Positions 739 to 58,105 of a stretch of DNA of 64,000 bases are shown here, piece after piece. Position numbers and translations under genes: made by a program. Positions within the stretch are counted from its first letter, which is position 1. Every line of letters begins with the position of its first letter. The stretch lies in NCBI GenBank assembly GCA_016873295.1, contig VGXM01000002.1:62001-126000 (forward strand), given 5' to 3'. The notes under the pieces are model-generated. The model was not told the origin of the DNA. It saw only the letters and a list, made by a program, of their open reading frames with translations, and ran no database searches. Source of the DNA: Phycisphaerae bacterium. GTDB lineage: Bacteria; Planctomycetota; Phycisphaerae; Phycisphaerales; UBA1924.

Positions 739-1735
739 GTGCCACGACCGTGCCGCCCCGGGCACAGCCGTGCTCGCGCGCACGGGGGCACGGTCGTGTC
801 CGGGTGGTTCCCGTGCCACGACTGTGCCGCTCGGGGCACAGTCGTGCCTTTGAGATCCCAAGACACGACTGTCGGTCAGAGCCCCGACAGTCGTGGCACG
901 GTCGTGTCCGGGTGGTACCGTGCCACGACTGTGCCGCTCGGGGCACAGTCGTGCCTTTGAGATCCCAAGACACGACTGTCGGTCAGAGCCCCGACAGTCG
1001 TGGCACGGTCGTGTCCGGGTGGTACCGTGCCACGACTGTGCCGCTCGGGGCACAGTCGTGCGCTTGCGATCCCAAGGCACGACTGTCGGTCAGAGCCCCG
1101 ACAGTCGTGGCACGGTCGTGTCCGGGTGGTTCCCGTGCCACGACTGTGCCGCTCGGGGCACAGTCGTGCGCTTGCGACTTGAGGACACGACCGTCGGTCA
1201 GAGCCCCGACAGTCGTGGCACGGTCGTGTCCGGGTGGTACCGTGCCACGACTGTGCCGCTCGGGGCACAGTCGTGCGCTTGCGATCCCAAGGCACGACTG
1301 TCGGTCAGAGCCCCGACAGTCGTGGCACGGTCGTGCCCGGGTGATTCCCGTGCCACGACTGTGCCGCCCTGGGCACAGTCGTGCGCTTGCGATCCGAAGG
1401 CACGACTGTCGGTCAGAGCCCCGACAGTCGTGGCACGGTCGTGTCCGGGTGGTACCCGTGCCACGACTGTGCCGCTCGGGGCACAGTCGTGCGCTTGCGA
1501 TCCCAAGACACGACTGTCGGTCCGAGCCCCGACAGTCGTGCCACGGTCGTGTCCGGGTGGTACCGTGCCACGACTGTGCCGCTCGGGGCACAGTCGTGCG
1601 CTTGCGATCCGAAGACACGACTGTCGGTCAGAGCCCCGACAGTCGTGGCACGGCGAAGGGGTGGGCCACGACCGTGCCGCCCGGGGCGCAGGCGTGTCGG
1701 CGGCAGACACGACGATCGGTCAGGGCACCGATCAT
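739..1735. repeat. Tandem array of ~107-bp nested-palindrome units
   Basis: Eight near-identical units begin at 813, 920, 1027, 1135, 1242, 1350, 1458 and 1565 (period 107 or 108), with a shortened unit at 739 and a diverged one at about 1664. Each unit holds two perfect 12-bp-arm hairpins built on the same core: CACGACTGTGCC/GGCACAGTCGTG (loop of 6) and CACGACTGTCGG/CCGACAGTCGTG (loop of 8). Where the linker reads GGTACC, the junction between units forms a third palindrome with 16-bp arms (ACAGTCGTGGCACGGT / ACCGTGCCACGACTGT). The stretch is open in several frames on both strands because the period lacks stops; these frames are not genes. It lies between the 3' ends of two convergent genes. 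No unique spacers exist, so it is not CRISPR. Function unknown; BIME/REP-like array or structured RNA are possibilities. Confidence 0.95.
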
Positions 1736-1766: not shown

Positions 1767-4700
1767 CTACCCCACCGCGACCTTGCGGGTCTCCCACTTG
1801 CGGCGGTTGTCGACGCGCTCCACGCTCACGCCGCCCACCACGCGCACCGAGCCGGCCGACCCCAGGATCGCCGACAGCTCGCCCACGTCCTCGGGCGTCA
1901 TGCGGAAGGCGCGCGTGCGGTCCGCCTCCAGCCACACCACGCCCGACTCGGTGGCGATCACCACGTCGAGCGGGAAGGCCGGGGCCTCGCCCTTGGGCCG
2001 ACCCGCCTCGACGAGCAGATCGGCGACGCGCTGGACCGCCGCCGACCCCGAGCCGTTGGCCTTGGCGGCGTCGATCGCGACGCGCACGCGCCCCGGCAGG
2101 AGGGGCACGGACTCGATGGGGACGATGCGATCCACGAGCACCTGGGCCTCGCCGCGCGAGTGATCGACGCGCCCGAGCACGAAGACGACCTTGTCGATCT
2201 CGAGCAGGTGCCCGTAGCGGGCGAAGGCGTCGCTGAAGAGGACGCCCTGGAGGCTGCCGCTGGTGTCCTCGATGGTGGCGACGCCCATCTTCTGCCCCGC
2301 CGCCGACCCGTTGCGGATCACCGACGTGCGGACCGCCTGCACCAGCCCCGCGAGCACGACGCGCTCGTCCTTCTTCCGGTCCTTGACGCCGGCGACGGTG
2401 CACGTCGCGAAGACCGCGCTCCAGAAGGCCCAGCGCTCCAGCGGGTGGCTCGACACGTAGAACCCGAGGGCTTCCTTCTCGTGGGCGAGGGTCTCGGCCT
2501 CGGTCCAGGGCGCGACCCGGGCCAGGGCCGCGGGGGCGCTCGTGGGGCCCCCGCCGCCGCCGAAGAGGGCGCCCTGCCCCGCGGCCCGGTCCGCCGCGGC
2601 CTTCTGCCCCGCCCCGATGGCGCCCTCGACGCTCGCGAGCATGGCGCTGCGCTGCTCGCGCCCTTGGACCGAGTCCAGCACGCCGCACTTGACCAGGGCC
2701 TCGATCGCCGCCTTGTTCACCACGCCCGGGCCCTGGGCCAGAAGCCGCTCGCACAGGTCAAAGAGCGAAGAGAACGCCCTCTTCCCCTCGCCCCCGGTGC
2801 CTCGATGCCCCCCTGCCTCGGCGCCTTCCCGCTCCGCGATGATCGCGCCGACGACCTTCTCCCCCACGCCCTTGATGCCCCGCAGCCCGAAGCGGATGTG
2901 CCCGTGCCACGCGTCACGCGGCTCGCCCCCGTCGAAGACCACCGTGAACTCGGCGTCGCTGAGGTTGAGGTCGGGCGGCTTGACCTCGATCCCCGTCCGC
3001 AGCGTGCGCCCCGTCGCCGGGTCGATCCGACGCGTGCGCTTGCAGTCCTCCAGGTACGGCATCCACTCGCTGGCCTTCATGGCCTGGCTCTCGTAGGTGA
3101 GGAACGCCGCCATGTACTGGGCCGGGAAGTACGTCTTGAGGTACGCCGTCTGGTACGCCACGATCGCGTACCCCGTGCTGTGGCTCTTGTTGAAGCCGTA
3201 GCCCGCGAACTTGAGGATGAGCTCGTAGAGATCGTCGCCGGCCTTCCTCGAGAGGCCCTTGCCGGCGGAGCCCTCGACGAACCGCGTGCGCTCGGCCTCG
3301 ATCACCTTCTCCTTCTTCTTGCTGATCGCCTTGATGAGCGAGTACGCCGCACGCAGCGGGATCCCCCCCAGCTCGTGCACGATCTGCATCACCTGCTCCT
3401 GGTACACCATCACGCCGTAGGTCTCGGCGGTGTGCCGATCGACGATCTCGTGCACCCTCGGCACCGCGTCCTGCCCGTGCTTGCGCCGGTTGTACGCCGG
3501 GATCAGGTCCATCGGGCCCGGGCGGAAGAGGGCGTTGGCCGCGATCAGGTCCTCCAGGCGGTCGGGCTTCATCTCCACCAGCAGCCGCCGCATGCCCGGC
3601 GACTCGAACTGGAACACCCCCGTCGTGTCCCCGCGCCGGAACACCTCGAACACCCTCTGGTCGTCGAACGACAGCCGGTCCAGGTCCAGCGGGTGGGCGT
3701 GCGCCGAGGTGTCGGGGGGAGGAGGGGTGTCGGGGCGCGACGGTGTCAAGGTGCCCGGGGCGTCGTCACCAGCCCCCCCGGCACGCTCCTTCTTCCCCCC
3801 CCTCGGCCCCTCGGCACCTCGGCACCTCGGCACCTCTCTTCGCCCGACCGCCCGCCAGATCTCGTCCTCGCTCAGCCCCCGCCGGATCAGCGCCTTGCAC
3901 CGCTCGATCACGCTCAGGGTGCGCAGCCCCAGGAAGTCCATCTTCAAGAGGCCCATCCGCTCGCACGTCGGGCCGTCCCACTGCGTCACCACCCCGCCGT
4001 CGTCGCTGCCGGGGGGCGTGTAAAGGGGCACGATCTCCTGCAGCCGCCGCGTCGCGACGATCACGCCCGCCGCGTGAACCCCCGCGTGCCGCGCCTGACC
4101 CTCGATGCTCGCCGCCGTGTCCACCAGGCGGCGCACCGCCTCGTCCCCCTCGTACGCCTTCTTCAGGTCCGGCTGCTCGGCCAGGGCCGACTCCAGCGTC
4201 GTCCCCACCGCCTCCGGGATCATCTTGCAGATCCGGTCCACGTCGGGCAGGGGCATCTCCATGACGCGCCCGACGTCGCGCAGGGCCGCCCGGGCCTTGA
4301 GCGTCCCGAACGTGATGATCTGGGCCACGTGCCCGTACTTGCGCCGGACGTAGTCGATCACCCGCGCCCGCCCGTCCTGGCACATGTCGATGTCGATGTC
4401 GGGGAACTCGCTGCGGTCCGGGTCGGTGAAACGCTCGAAGAGCAGCCCGTACCGCACCGGGCAGGCGTTGGAGAGCCCCAGCACGTACCCCACCATCGTC
4501 CCCACGCCCGAGCCGCGGGCCAGGGCCGGCACGTGGTTCTGCCGCCCCCAGTTGACGAAGTCCCACACGATCAGGAAGTAGGCGCTGATCCCCTTGTCGC
4601 ACAAAACCTTCAGCTCGCGCTCCAGGCGGGATCTCTTGGCCGGGTCGCCCGCGCCCGACTCGCCGTAGCGCCACGTGAACCCGGCCTCGGCCAGCAGCCG

Positions 4701-5834
4701 AAGCGCCGCGTCGCACTCGCTCTGCGCCCGCGCCCGATCGCCGCCGGATTCCAGCGGTACGACCTCGAACTCGGCGCAGAAGGCGTCGTACCACGCCGAC
4801 AGGTCGCCCCCGAACCGCGCCTCGTCGCGCGTCGGCAACCCGGGCGCGTCGAGCGCCGCCCCCGAACGTCGCACCACCCGCACCATGGGTGCGTGCTTGG
4901 CGCCGATCGGCAGCGACACGTCGCACCGGCGCGCGATCCGCACGGTGTTGTCGCACGCCTCGCGCCCGGCCTCGCCGTACGCCTCGAAGAGCCGGCGCAT
5001 CTCCGACGGGCTCTTGACGTAGAGCTCCCGCGAGTACCGCATTCGGTTGGGCTCGCTCTTGGCCTTGCCCGTGGAGATACAGATGAGCGTGTCGTGGGCG
5101 TCGTGGTCCTCGCGCCGCAGGAAGTGCGCGTCGTTGGTCGCGACCAGCGGCAGCCCGAGCTCCTCCGCCAGCCGGATCAGGTGCGGGTTGATCGAGTTCT
5201 GCTCGGGCACGTGGTGCTGGAGTTCCACGTAGAACCGGGGCTCGGGCCCGCGGTTGAAGACGTGCGCGTGCCAGCGCGCGCTCTCGACCGCCGCGGCCCA
5301 GTGCTTCTCGTCGCCGTTCTGCTCGAACGCCAGCAGGTGCTCGCCGATCTCGGAGCCCAGGTGCCCGTTGATGGCGATCAGGCCCTCGGCGTGCCTCTCC
5401 AGCAGCTCGCGGTCGATGCGCGGCTTGTAGTAGAAGCCGGTGAGGTAGGCCTCGGAGCACAACTCCATCAGGTTGCGCCAACCGGCGTCGTTCTGCGCCA
5501 GAAGGACAAGGTGGAACCCGCCCTCGCCCCCGCCCGAGTAGGTGCGGTCGGTGCGCGGCTTGTCGGGGGGCGTGACGTAGGCCTCGACCCCGAGGATCGG
5601 GCGCACGCCACGCTCCCGGCACTCCGTGTAGACCGCCACTGACCCGAAGAGGTTGCCGTGGTCGGTGACGCCGACGGCGTCCATGCCCAGTTCGGCGACG
5701 CGCGAGACGAGCTTCTCGACTCGGTTCCCGCCGTCGAGCAGCGAGTACTCGGTGTGCAGGTGAAGGTGCACGAACCGATCGCCGATGGGCATCGCGTCGC
5801 CCGCACCCACAACTTGTTGTGTTCGCTCCGCCAT
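1767..5834 (-). CDS. dnaE: DNA polymerase III subunit alpha
   Basis: Replicative DNA polymerase catalytic subunit, 1355 aa with the ATG at 5834; an ATG at 5792 (MPIGDRFVHLH) is an alternative start. The N-terminal PHP domain opens with HLHLH at residues 23-27. The polymerase metal-binding motif PDIDIDM is at 478-484. The helix-hairpin-helix region and an OB fold near the C-terminus (GVLFSDAFARYG) follow in normal order. Around residues 660-710 there is a low-complexity Pro/Gly/Arg insertion not expected in DnaE; it contains four 8-bp repeat units. The 152-bp gap to the divergent MarR gene holds the promoter. Family assignment is secure; whether the insertion is tolerated as a surface loop is inference. 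Confidence 0.95.
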   Translation of the reverse strand: MAERTQQVVGAGDAMPIGDRFVHLHLHTEYSLLDGGNRVEKLVSRVAELGMDAVGVTDHGNLFGSVAVYTECRERGVRPILGVEAYVTPPDKPRTDRTYSGGGEGGFHLVLLAQNDAGWRNLMELCSEAYLTGFYYKPRIDRELLERHAEGLIAINGHLGSEIGEHLLAFEQNGDEKHWAAAVESARWHAHVFNRGPEPRFYVELQHHVPEQNSINPHLIRLAEELGLPLVATNDAHFLRREDHDAHDTLICISTGKAKSEPNRMRYSRELYVKSPSEMRRLFEAYGEAGREACDNTVRIARRCDVSLPIGAKHAPMVRVVRRSGAALDAPGLPTRDEARFGGDLSAWYDAFCAEFEVVPLESGGDRARAQSECDAALRLLAEAGFTWRYGESGAGDPAKRSRLERELKVLCDKGISAYFLIVWDFVNWGRQNHVPALARGSGVGTMVGYVLGLSNACPVRYGLLFERFTDPDRSEFPDIDIDMCQDGRARVIDYVRRKYGHVAQIITFGTLKARAALRDVGRVMEMPLPDVDRICKMIPEAVGTTLESALAEQPDLKKAYEGDEAVRRLVDTAASIEGQARHAGVHAAGVIVATRRLQEIVPLYTPPGSDDGGVVTQWDGPTCERMGLLKMDFLGLRTLSVIERCKALIRRGLSEDEIWRAVGRREVPRCRGAEGPRGGKKERAGGAGDDAPGTLTPSRPDTPPPPDTSAHAHPLDLDRLSFDDQRVFEVFRRGDTTGVFQFESPGMRRLLVEMKPDRLEDLIAANALFRPGPMDLIPAYNRRKHGQDAVPRVHEIVDRHTAETYGVMVYQEQVMQIVHELGGIPLRAAYSLIKAISKKKEKVIEAERTRFVEGSAGKGLSRKAGDDLYELILKFAGYGFNKSHSTGYAIVAYQTAYLKTYFPAQYMAAFLTYESQAMKASEWMPYLEDCKRTRRIDPATGRTLRTGIEVKPPDLNLSDAEFTVVFDGGEPRDAWHGHIRFGLRGIKGVGEKVVGAIIAEREGAEAGGHRGTGGEGKRAFSSLFDLCERLLAQGPGVVNKAAIEALVKCGVLDSVQGREQRSAMLASVEGAIGAGQKAAADRAAGQGALFGGGGGPTSAPAALARVAPWTEAETLAHEKEALGFYVSSHPLERWAFWSAVFATCTVAGVKDRKKDERVVLAGLVQAVRTSVIRNGSAAGQKMGVATIEDTSGSLQGVLFSDAFARYGHLLEIDKVVFVLGRVDHSRGEAQVLVDRIVPIESVPLLPGRVRVAIDAAKANGSGSAAVQRVADLLVEAGRPKGEAPAFPLDVVIATESGVVWLEADRTRAFRMTPEDVGELSAILGSAGSVRVVGGVSVERVDNRRKWETRKVAVG
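3803..3834 (-). repeat. 8-bp repeats inside dnaE
   Basis: Read on the minus strand this is three exact copies of GGTGCCGA plus one GGGGCCGA, four octamers in all. They encode part of the Pro/Arg/Gly-rich insertion of DnaE. The first six bases match the GGTGCCTT-type octamers found downstream of the three HAF-repeat genes at 51-54 kb. Confidence 0.85.
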
Positions 5835-5849
5835 ACCCGACCCCAAGCC

Positions 5850-5881
5850 ACTATAGATTGAATCAGCAGGTCGTCGGTCAA
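5850..5881 (-). promoter_or_regulatory. Candidate dnaE promoter
   Basis: On the minus strand TTGACC (5876-5881) is followed 20 bp later by TATAGT (5850-5855), or 18 bp later by TCTATA. The ATG is 15 bp beyond TATAGT, so the leader would be only about 8 nt. The spacing is not ideal, so this is tentative. Confidence 0.35.
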
Positions 5882-5947
5882 GTCTATCGGTGGCGGACGG
5901 GAGTCGAGCGGAGCCGCCAGCTTCTCCCCGAAACCGGCGAGCACGGG

Positions 5948-5976
5948 TTGACCCGGCCCCCAAGCCGTGATATACA
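5948..5976 (+). promoter_or_regulatory. Promoter of the MarR gene
   Basis: TTGACC at 5948-5953 and TATACA at 5971-5976 are exactly 17 bp apart, a good sigma-70-type pair. The expected start point, about 5983, is only a few bases before the ATG at 5987, so the transcript would have almost no leader. Confidence 0.6.
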
Positions 5977-12763: not shown

Positions 12764-12947
12764 GCGCGAGTCGGAAGAACGTGCACCAAGGCGCGGGCGG
12801 GCGCTGCGGGTGCCACGGGCGAGCCGCCCGGCGGTCGCCCGTGCCGGCGTCCGGACGGGCCTCGAACAGCCGCACGGGTCACGGGCGGAGCGCCCGATGA
12901 CCCGTGGCACCCGGAGCGCATCCGTCCACGGACTTCCGACTCGCGCC
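12763..12947. mobile_element. MITE-like element, copy 1
   Basis: A 185-bp element with perfect 15-bp terminal inverted repeats (GGCGCGAGTCGGAAG at 12763-12777, its complement at 12933-12947). An internal inverted repeat, CGGGTGCCACGGG (12807-12819) with CCCGTGGCACCCG (12901-12913), makes the whole element fold on itself. A second copy in the same orientation lies at 17006-17177. It begins in the last base of the oxidase stop codon. No transposase or clear target duplication is visible. Confidence 0.85.
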
Positions 12948-17005: not shown

Positions 17006-17177
17006 GGCGCGAGTCGGAAGAACGCGCACAGAGGCGCGGGCGGGTGCCGCGGGCGAGCCGCCGGTCGCCCGTGCCGGCGTCCGGACGGGCCTCGAACAGC
17101 CGCACGGGTCACGGGCGAAGCGCCCGATGACCCCTGGCACCCGGCGCGCATCCGTCCACGGACTTCCGACTCTCGCC
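17006..17177. mobile_element. MITE-like element, copy 2
   Basis: A 172-bp copy of the element at 12763-12947, same orientation, with terminal repeats GGCGCGAGTCGGAAG (17006-17020) and CTTCCGACTCTCGCC (17163-17177), 14 of 15 matching. The interior is about as conserved but 13 bp shorter. It lies about 100 bp upstream of the tricorn start, so the two copies bracket that gene. Confidence 0.85.
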
Positions 17178-51014: not shown

Positions 51015-51079
51015 CCACCCACGGCTGCCGAATGCCGGTTGCCTGACGCCCGGTGGCGCGCCCCCTGTCTCGCTCTCTC

Positions 51080-51119
51080 GCCGCCTCGGTGCCTCGCTGC
51101 CTTGGTGCCTCGATGCCTA
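51080..51119 (+). repeat. Octamer tract A (GGTGCCTC type)
   Basis: About four to five degenerate 8-bp units (GGTGCCTC, GCTGCCTT, GGTGCCTC, GATGCCTA). The last one includes the stop codon of HAF paralog A, read on the minus strand. Confidence 0.8.
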
Positions 51120-52440: not shown

Positions 52441-52496
52441 GGTGCCTCGGTGCCTTGGTGCCTTGGTGCCTCGGTGCCTTGGTGCCTTGGTGCCTA
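52441..52496 (+). repeat. Octamer tract B (7 units)
   Basis: Seven contiguous 8-bp units: GGTGCCTC, GGTGCCTT (x2), GGTGCCTC, GGTGCCTT (x2), GGTGCCTA. The last unit overlaps the stop codon of paralog B. Confidence 0.92.
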
Positions 52497-53811: not shown

Positions 53812-53851
53812 GGTGCCTCGGTGCCTTGGTGCCTTGGTGCCTTGGTGCCTA
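53812..53851 (+). repeat. Octamer tract C (5 units)
   Basis: Five contiguous 8-bp units: GGTGCCTC, GGTGCCTT (x3), GGTGCCTA. The last overlaps the stop codon of paralog C. Confidence 0.92.
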
Positions 53852-57654: not shown

Positions 57655-58105
57655 CACACGCGTCCTGACTCCCGACCGTGGCCCCACCCGTGCCGGCGGG
57701 GTCGCGCCGGCGATCCCGGCGCCGTGCCGGTCGCCTTTAGAATCACCTCCGCTCCTCCGCTCCTCCGCTCCTCAGCTCCGCCGCTCCGCCGTGCCGTTGG
57801 ACGTCTTCATGGAATGTCCGCCTGTCTGAGTGCCCCGGAGCCCCGGCGGCCCACTCGCCGGCCCCGTACCCACAATCTACCGGAAGGCCGGTGTTGGAGT
57901 TGCGAGTTCCGCGGGATCTGGCATGGATCGCGCGATTCCACCCACGCCGGGTACACTCGCCCCCTGGCGTATACATGGATTCCCCGGGGGAGACACCCCC
58001 CCCCCGGCGGGGATGCCGTTGCCGGTCCCGGGCCAGGTCCGCCCATGCCCGCGGGAGCGTGGGCGCGACCCTGGTCGATCCGTGCCCCGTATCCTCAGTG
58101 CCCCG
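57655..58105. other. Divergent intergenic region with 8-bp-period tract
   Basis: A 451-bp gap between divergent genes. At 57751-57790 there are five 8-bp units (GCTCCTCC twice, GCTCCTCA, GCTCCGCC twice). No coding-like frame and no clear promoter pair were found. Confidence 0.7.

Follow-up and report, generated by a model that had tools for sequence, protein, structure and literature searches.

REP/BIME elements tagged with GTAG and the RAYT transposases that accompany them in E. coli, Pseudomonas and Stenotrophomonas, together with the REPINs, are the closest described relatives of the palindromic array reported here. The tags described for REPs are GTAG and CGTC (PMC3733652) or GT[AG]G and CnGA (PMC6006769), the tag being most often GTAG (PMC8266576). 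The array lies in the window, a 64,000-nucleotide stretch of Phycisphaerae DNA from contig C2 (62001–126000), and shares with these systems a palindrome of 20 to 50 nt whose 5′ foot carries a tetranucleotide, an intergenic location at high copy number, dimers arranged head-to-head, mosaics that combine several stem types, tandem clusters and the presence of a RAYT in the genome. It differs from them in its tag, which is GTGC and not GTAG, GTGG or CGTC, in stems that begin with CAC and loops that carry GCTC or GCTT, and in that no RAYT was found beside its stem family. Class 3 Y1 elements of Planctomycetes (PMC6006769) also comprise high-copy hairpins associated with a Y1 enzyme in the same phylum, but they have their own tag, CnGA, and the Tyr motif EQ where the GTGC systems have NP. 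We found no mention of GTGC as a tag in PMC3733652, PMC6006769 or PMC8266576, nor any report of a GTGC REP tag in a literature search of limited coverage; provisionally, the tag appears to be undescribed. Because its tag is GTGC, the array falls outside the GTAG (GT[AG]G) and CGTC super-families and is a REP/BIME in the broad sense. Very probably, it is a BIME/REPIN that belongs to a high-copy REP family, presumably mobilised by a RAYT, and has been amplified in tandem.

The first-pass annotation had described eight units of about 107 bp, each with two 12-bp-arm hairpins on a common core, and both points were borne out. Tandem Repeats Finder gave 8.1 copies of 107 bp at 787–1653 with 93% matches, and register analysis resolved eight units of 107 or 108 bp with decayed units at both ends, the whole array spanning 739–1739 with no strand assigned. 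Each unit pairs a type A hairpin (12-bp arms, 6-nt loop) with a type C hairpin (12-bp arms, 8-nt loop), both built on CACGACTGT / ACAGTCGTG. A decayed, GTGC-tagged type A REP (739–772, + strand) marks the left edge. Units 1 (813–899) and 2 (920–1006) share the linker CCTTTGAGATCCCAAGA between GTGC-A (813–846 and 920–953) and C-GCAC (864–899 and 971–1006). In unit 3 (1027–1113), CGCTTGCGATCCCAAGG joins GTGC-A at 1027–1060 to C-GCAC at 1078–1113, and in unit 4 (1135–1221), CGCTTGCGACTTGAGGA, a linker also present in the array on contig C6, joins GTGC-A at 1135–1168 to C-GCAC at 1186–1221, which has one arm mismatch. Unit 5 (1242–1328) comprises GTGC-A at 1242–1275 and C-GCAC at 1293–1328; unit 6 (1350–1436) has the loop GCCCTG in GTGC-A (1350–1383), followed by C-GCAC at 1401–1436. 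Unit 7 (1458–1544) carries GTGC-A at 1458–1491 and a type C hairpin at 1509–1540 with CCAC in place of GCAC, and unit 8 (1565–1651) has GTGC-A at 1565–1598 and C-GCAC at 1616–1651. Decayed REPs occupy the right edge (1665–1739), with type A at 1665–1696 and, at 1708–1739, a type C hairpin whose inner arms are compensated and outer arms broken. For the diverged last unit, the reading of GATCGG/CCGATC against TGTCGG/CCGACA as a true double compensation was correct, but the outer six pairs of this hairpin are broken (CACGAC against ATGGCG), and the unit is therefore decaying. The third palindrome proposed at unit junctions, ACAGTCGTGGCACGGT / ACCGTGCCACGACTGT, has the claimed 16-bp arms where the junction is GGTACCGTG; where it is TTCCCGTG the arms are 15 bp. 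Folded as single-stranded DNA, one unit reached −39.9 kcal/mol (z = −7.0). The array separates convergent genes, as first annotated: upstream is the 3′ part of a large gene (3–722, + strand) that has no Pfam match in this part and whose stop codon, at 722, falls just before the array, and on the other side dnaE (DNA polymerase III alpha; 1767–5963, − strand) converges on it.

With one unit as query, the genome of the window (3.14 Mb, 104 contigs, 94.75% complete) gave 266 matches, spread over some 30 contigs. Exact copies of CACGACTGT-N{4,24}-ACAGTCGTG, a pattern that is the same on either strand, numbered 275 genome-wide, compared with 0 for the reversed-pattern control, and the regions around exact matches yielded 279 hairpins in 42 clusters, with arrays of up to 20 hairpins or more at a single locus. 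The window array is therefore one cluster of a dispersed REP/BIME palindrome family. All hairpins follow one plan, in which a fixed 9-bp outer arm is combined with a 3-bp inner arm that exists in three compensated versions, GCC/GGC in type A (137 copies), TCG/CGA in type B (80 copies) and CGG/CCG in type C (62 copies), around a loop with GCTC. With orientation set by the loop showing GCTC or a close variant, GTGC directly precedes the hairpin in 263/279 cases and on one side only, the opposite side being variable. Hairpins of 30 to 32 nt with 12-bp arms lie within the 20 to 50 nt required by the broad definition of a REP, which likewise asks for a tetranucleotide at one foot only and for high-copy, intergenic repeats; all 42 clusters are intergenic. 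These results contradict the idea that an assembly artefact or a local neutral tandem duplication without wider meaning could be the full explanation. Clusters do stand at several contig ends (C14, C15, C17, C26, C31 and C61, judged from the listed places), so the repeats disturb the assembly, and the copy numbers may be inaccurate; the window array, however, is interior to a contig of 206 kb, substitutions distinguish its units and the family occupies about 42 separate sites, which leaves this explanation with next to no credibility.

The REPs are arranged as expected for BIMEs and REPINs, that is, inverted REPs with a linker, often in tandem: we counted 119 head-to-head heterodimers with GTGC outside, 75 A-B and 44 A-C, together with tandem arrays. 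Among 28 full-length A-C units, tag and stems vary by 0 to 0.03 per site and the 17-nt linker by 0.197. The closest relative of a unit lay in another array in 13 cases and in its own array in 2, with 13 ties, and variants of the linker, CCTTTGAGATCCCAAGA among them, are found repeatedly on contigs C2, C6 and C18; the unit variants common to several arrays could come from recombination alone. Dimers with inverted ends of 13 bp or longer and a regular unit spacing might also recall a classical MITE or a CRISPR-like array, but the ends are complete hairpins tagged on one side and the enzymes with a matching plan are RAYTs, so that we consider such an identity extremely improbable. A CRISPR array was rejected, the linkers being a few recurrent variants common to several loci and not unique spacers.

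Gene prediction for this GC-rich genome, trained on known genes, placed all 42 clusters between predicted genes, 19 of them between tandem, 12 between convergent and 3 between divergent genes, the remaining 8/42 being at ends of a contig or of the stretch read (background gene pairs: 210 tandem, 66 convergent and 66 divergent). This placement agrees with that reported for REPs, which stand mainly between unidirectional and convergent genes (PMC3733652). The same bias (31/34 clusters in tandem or convergent gaps, 3/34 in divergent ones) and the very stable stems could also be expected if the hairpins acted in RNA, as read-through terminators or 3′-end stabilisers with stems kept by selection. 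In a set of 47 distinct hairpins, pairing holds in 94% of cells and two-sided changes number 66, against 82% and 30 in shuffles; these counts were made in a fixed register, as a MAFFT alignment of the hairpins misplaced the type C inner arms. The two-sided changes stem mainly from the three types and so represent few events, and departures from the type consensus comprise 39 one-sided non-pairing cells, 15 G-T and 4 compensated. Conservation of structure, as first proposed, thus holds between hairpin types, through their compensated inner arms, but is weak within types, where changes are mostly uncompensated. The covariation result is compatible with DNA or RNA structure and does not tell them apart. 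Rfam at gathering scores gave no family match in the array, and promoter and intrinsic terminator scans of the array, including for a T-run terminator, found none. An RNA hairpin would moreover have no need of an asymmetric GTGC tag and strict head-to-head dimers, and the clusters occur in one genome only. Together with the uncompensated changes within types, this makes an RNA role an unlikely origin of the repeats, one that could act as a secondary effect.

The seven Y1 transposase (PF01797) matches of the genome are four IS200-type genes, two RAYTs (NCBIfam) and one truncated fragment at a contig end. The RAYT on contig C54 (NF047646, 107.9 bits) matches among PDB sequences only 4ER8, E. coli TnpA-REP (1.7e-10), and is flanked on both sides by GTGC-CACCGATGTCG-GCTCTG-CGACATCGGTG, a palindrome with 8 copies genome-wide. 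A 109-nt unit, GTGC-CACGGGCGA-GCTCGG-TCGCCCGTG...GCCCGATGACCCGTG-GCAC, flanks the RAYT on contig C50 in four copies; in this unit, GTGC-CACGGGCGA-GCTCGG-TCGCCCGTG is paired with a second hairpin, GTGC-CACGGGTCATCGGGC-..., that has 102 tagged copies genome-wide. Both RAYTs are thus flanked by REPs with the plan of the window family and other stems. The exact CACGACTGT hairpin was absent from the regions around six of the seven Y1 loci and from the 2 kb around the seventh, C54. As for the three RAYT-like genes in the genome, either the REPs beside them are different or, in the case of a copy within ValS, the catalytic Tyr is missing. A REPtron, with a RAYT flanked by the same REPs, was accordingly not found in this incomplete assembly, the RAYTs having other GTGC REPs; since no RAYT is flanked by CACGACTGT REPs, the mobiliser can only be inferred, and it may be absent from the assembly, lost, or the C54 or C50 RAYT acting in trans. 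The REP/BIME-like amplification suggested by the first-pass annotation is nevertheless strongly supported by dispersal, tag, inverted dimers, intergenic sites and RAYTs with repeats of the same plan.

The RAYT loci also bear on whether the arrays are binding sites for a host protein (a nucleoid protein, gyrase or a segregation factor) amplified for binding. Gyrase, IHF and Pol I are stated to bind known REPs (PMC6006769), and loci of at least 20 hairpins would suit such a role; yet no single locus stands out among the some 30 contigs on which the family is scattered, RAYT genes are flanked by repeats that follow its plan with different stems, which points to RAYT as the reader, and the repeat is absent from the related genomes searched, bar one single copy. 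We regard this reading as very unlikely, less so than an artefact and more so than an RNA role, and no evidence singled out a topological or protein-binding site or a structured RNA, as put forward at first.

Look-alikes of the C50-type REPs (GTGC-CACGGGCGA...TCGCCCGTG family) were also seen in the window at 12810–12843 and 17044–17073. Composite modules in which an A-B dimer of the window family stands beside or between C50-type hairpins occur at L036, L037, L038, L039, L042, L062 and L064, with near-identical flanks at several loci; the two REP families therefore spread or amplify as one block.

Asked whether the unit occurs elsewhere, we found it throughout its own genome and in none of the other genomes of the family: the window repeat was absent from 60/60 relatives and from 162/162 other genomes of the family. 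Among 84,980 species, one copy was found outside its own genome, in one other member of the Phycisphaerales, with the caveat that the nearest records may be outside the scan. There (CP070772.1, Phycisphaerales bin220; L105:5886-6006), GTGC-CACGACTGTAGTCC-GCTTTG-GGACTACAGTCGTG faces a second GTGC-tagged hairpin; the outer arm of this REPIN is that of the window family, in one copy only, and the inner arm differs. GTGC-flanked RAYT loci of related Planctomycetota (for example L074, L076, L083, L087, L094, L097 and L142) have GTGC-CA(C/T)...GTG hairpins, of the kind seen in the window family, in inverted orientation on either side of the RAYT gene, but their stems vary from genus to genus and none is CACGACTGT. 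Of 30 RAYT loci of the family, 15 had GTGC at perfect hairpins, more than any other tag (the next 7, GTAG 0), and 21/30 had a GTGC hairpin if one mismatch was allowed; phylum-wide, GTAG was found at 5/29 RAYT loci and GTGC at 4/29.

RAYTs at the GTGC-flanked Planctomycetota loci carry the motif EHVH ... FW(Q/L)xGGG(F/Y)DRN ... YIHxNP, and Table 1 of PMC6006769 lists no subclass with the HUH variant EHVH or this loop, GGG(F/Y)DRN. W(Q/L)xGGG(F/Y)DRN stands where GTAG-type RAYTs have WQ...EH..R; GGG(F/Y)DRN was placed at the guide-reading stretch of the E. coli enzyme, in which W94, Q95, E100, H101 and R104 read the guide (PMC6006769), by counting from W without structural alignment. At least two GTGC hairpins accompanied 18/28 RAYTs with W(Q/L)xGGG(F/Y)DR versus 2/31 others (Fisher 4e-6), and GTAG hairpins 0/28 RAYTs with this loop versus 7/31 others, the loci compared being kin by descent, so that P values overstate the case. 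These results suggest that in a Planctomycetota REP class that includes the window array the GTGC tag and the RAYT loop W(Q/L)xGGG(F/Y)DRN probably changed together. If so, GTGC is predicted to shift RAYT cleavage, which by the guide rule of PMC8266576 applied to GTGC would fall at GC or GA and not at CT or CA. A tag and a RAYT loop that jointly differ from those of GTAG systems would amount to a natural experiment on guide reading by a single-strand transposase.

The array can thus be explained as follows. One REP would consist of GTGC + CACGACTGT-NNN-(G)GCTC-loop-N'N'N'-ACAGTCGTG, and two REPs of different inner-arm type with GTGC outside would form a mobilisable head-to-head dimer. When the strand is single-stranded, each REP would fold into a hairpin; a RAYT (TnpA-REP, an HUH-Y1 nuclease) would read the hairpin and the GTGC guide, nick beside the hairpin and carry the dimer to a new intergenic site that is single-stranded. 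Slippage or unequal recombination would then lengthen or shorten the tandem, and arrays would exchange unit variants. What we infer here is the route of amplification and that a RAYT, either acting in trans or since lost, mobilised the dimers. In the simplest view, the present role is that of an intergenic repeat that is mobile, close to neutral and tolerant of gene 3′ ends, with a possible influence on mRNA ends or supercoiling. A puzzling palindromic array is in this way accounted for as a REP/BIME, and REPs are extended to an apparently undescribed GTGC tag. REP families of this kind fragment assemblies made from short reads and could be used to tell strains apart.

RAYT-like (NF047646) domains were also seen nested in-frame within housekeeping proteins across many genera of the family, and these look more surprising than the array. 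ValS has such a nested domain at L031:5911-9684 (− strand), L109, L110, L112, L114-L116 and L118-L120, in the same place in 10/10 copies, shortly before the RDWCISRQ motif. From recognised sequence motifs, we take the hosts to be LeuS at L111, L113 and L117, MiaA at L121 and RdgB/HAM1 at L122-L124 and L126. In the ValS copy of the window's genome, DHVH is kept and Ser replaces the catalytic Tyr, and at L110 the HUH motif is lost (DHVL), the frame thus being preserved as catalysis decays. Linkers at the nested domains (L112, L115, L116, L118, L119 and L120) read RGTGFQPV/RGTGVPPV, GLEARPT and RRDACATR; their codons resemble palindromes that have been translated, so REPs may have come in together with the nested domains. 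A literature search found no mention of GTGFQPV. At L093:1359-1461, three GTGG-tagged hairpins, GACGGGCG-TCT-CGCCCGTC, precede a RAYT-like domain in a 792-aa open frame, the GTGG tag differing from the tags of its neighbours. Finally, the window contains octamer microsatellites (GGTGCCTY)n at 52441–52495 and 53812–53850, and related 8-bp repeats at 3801–3836, 51065–51118 and 57746–57791; the triple (GGTGCCTY) repeat occurs 7 times in the genome, 6 of these being overlapping matches within the two window tracts.
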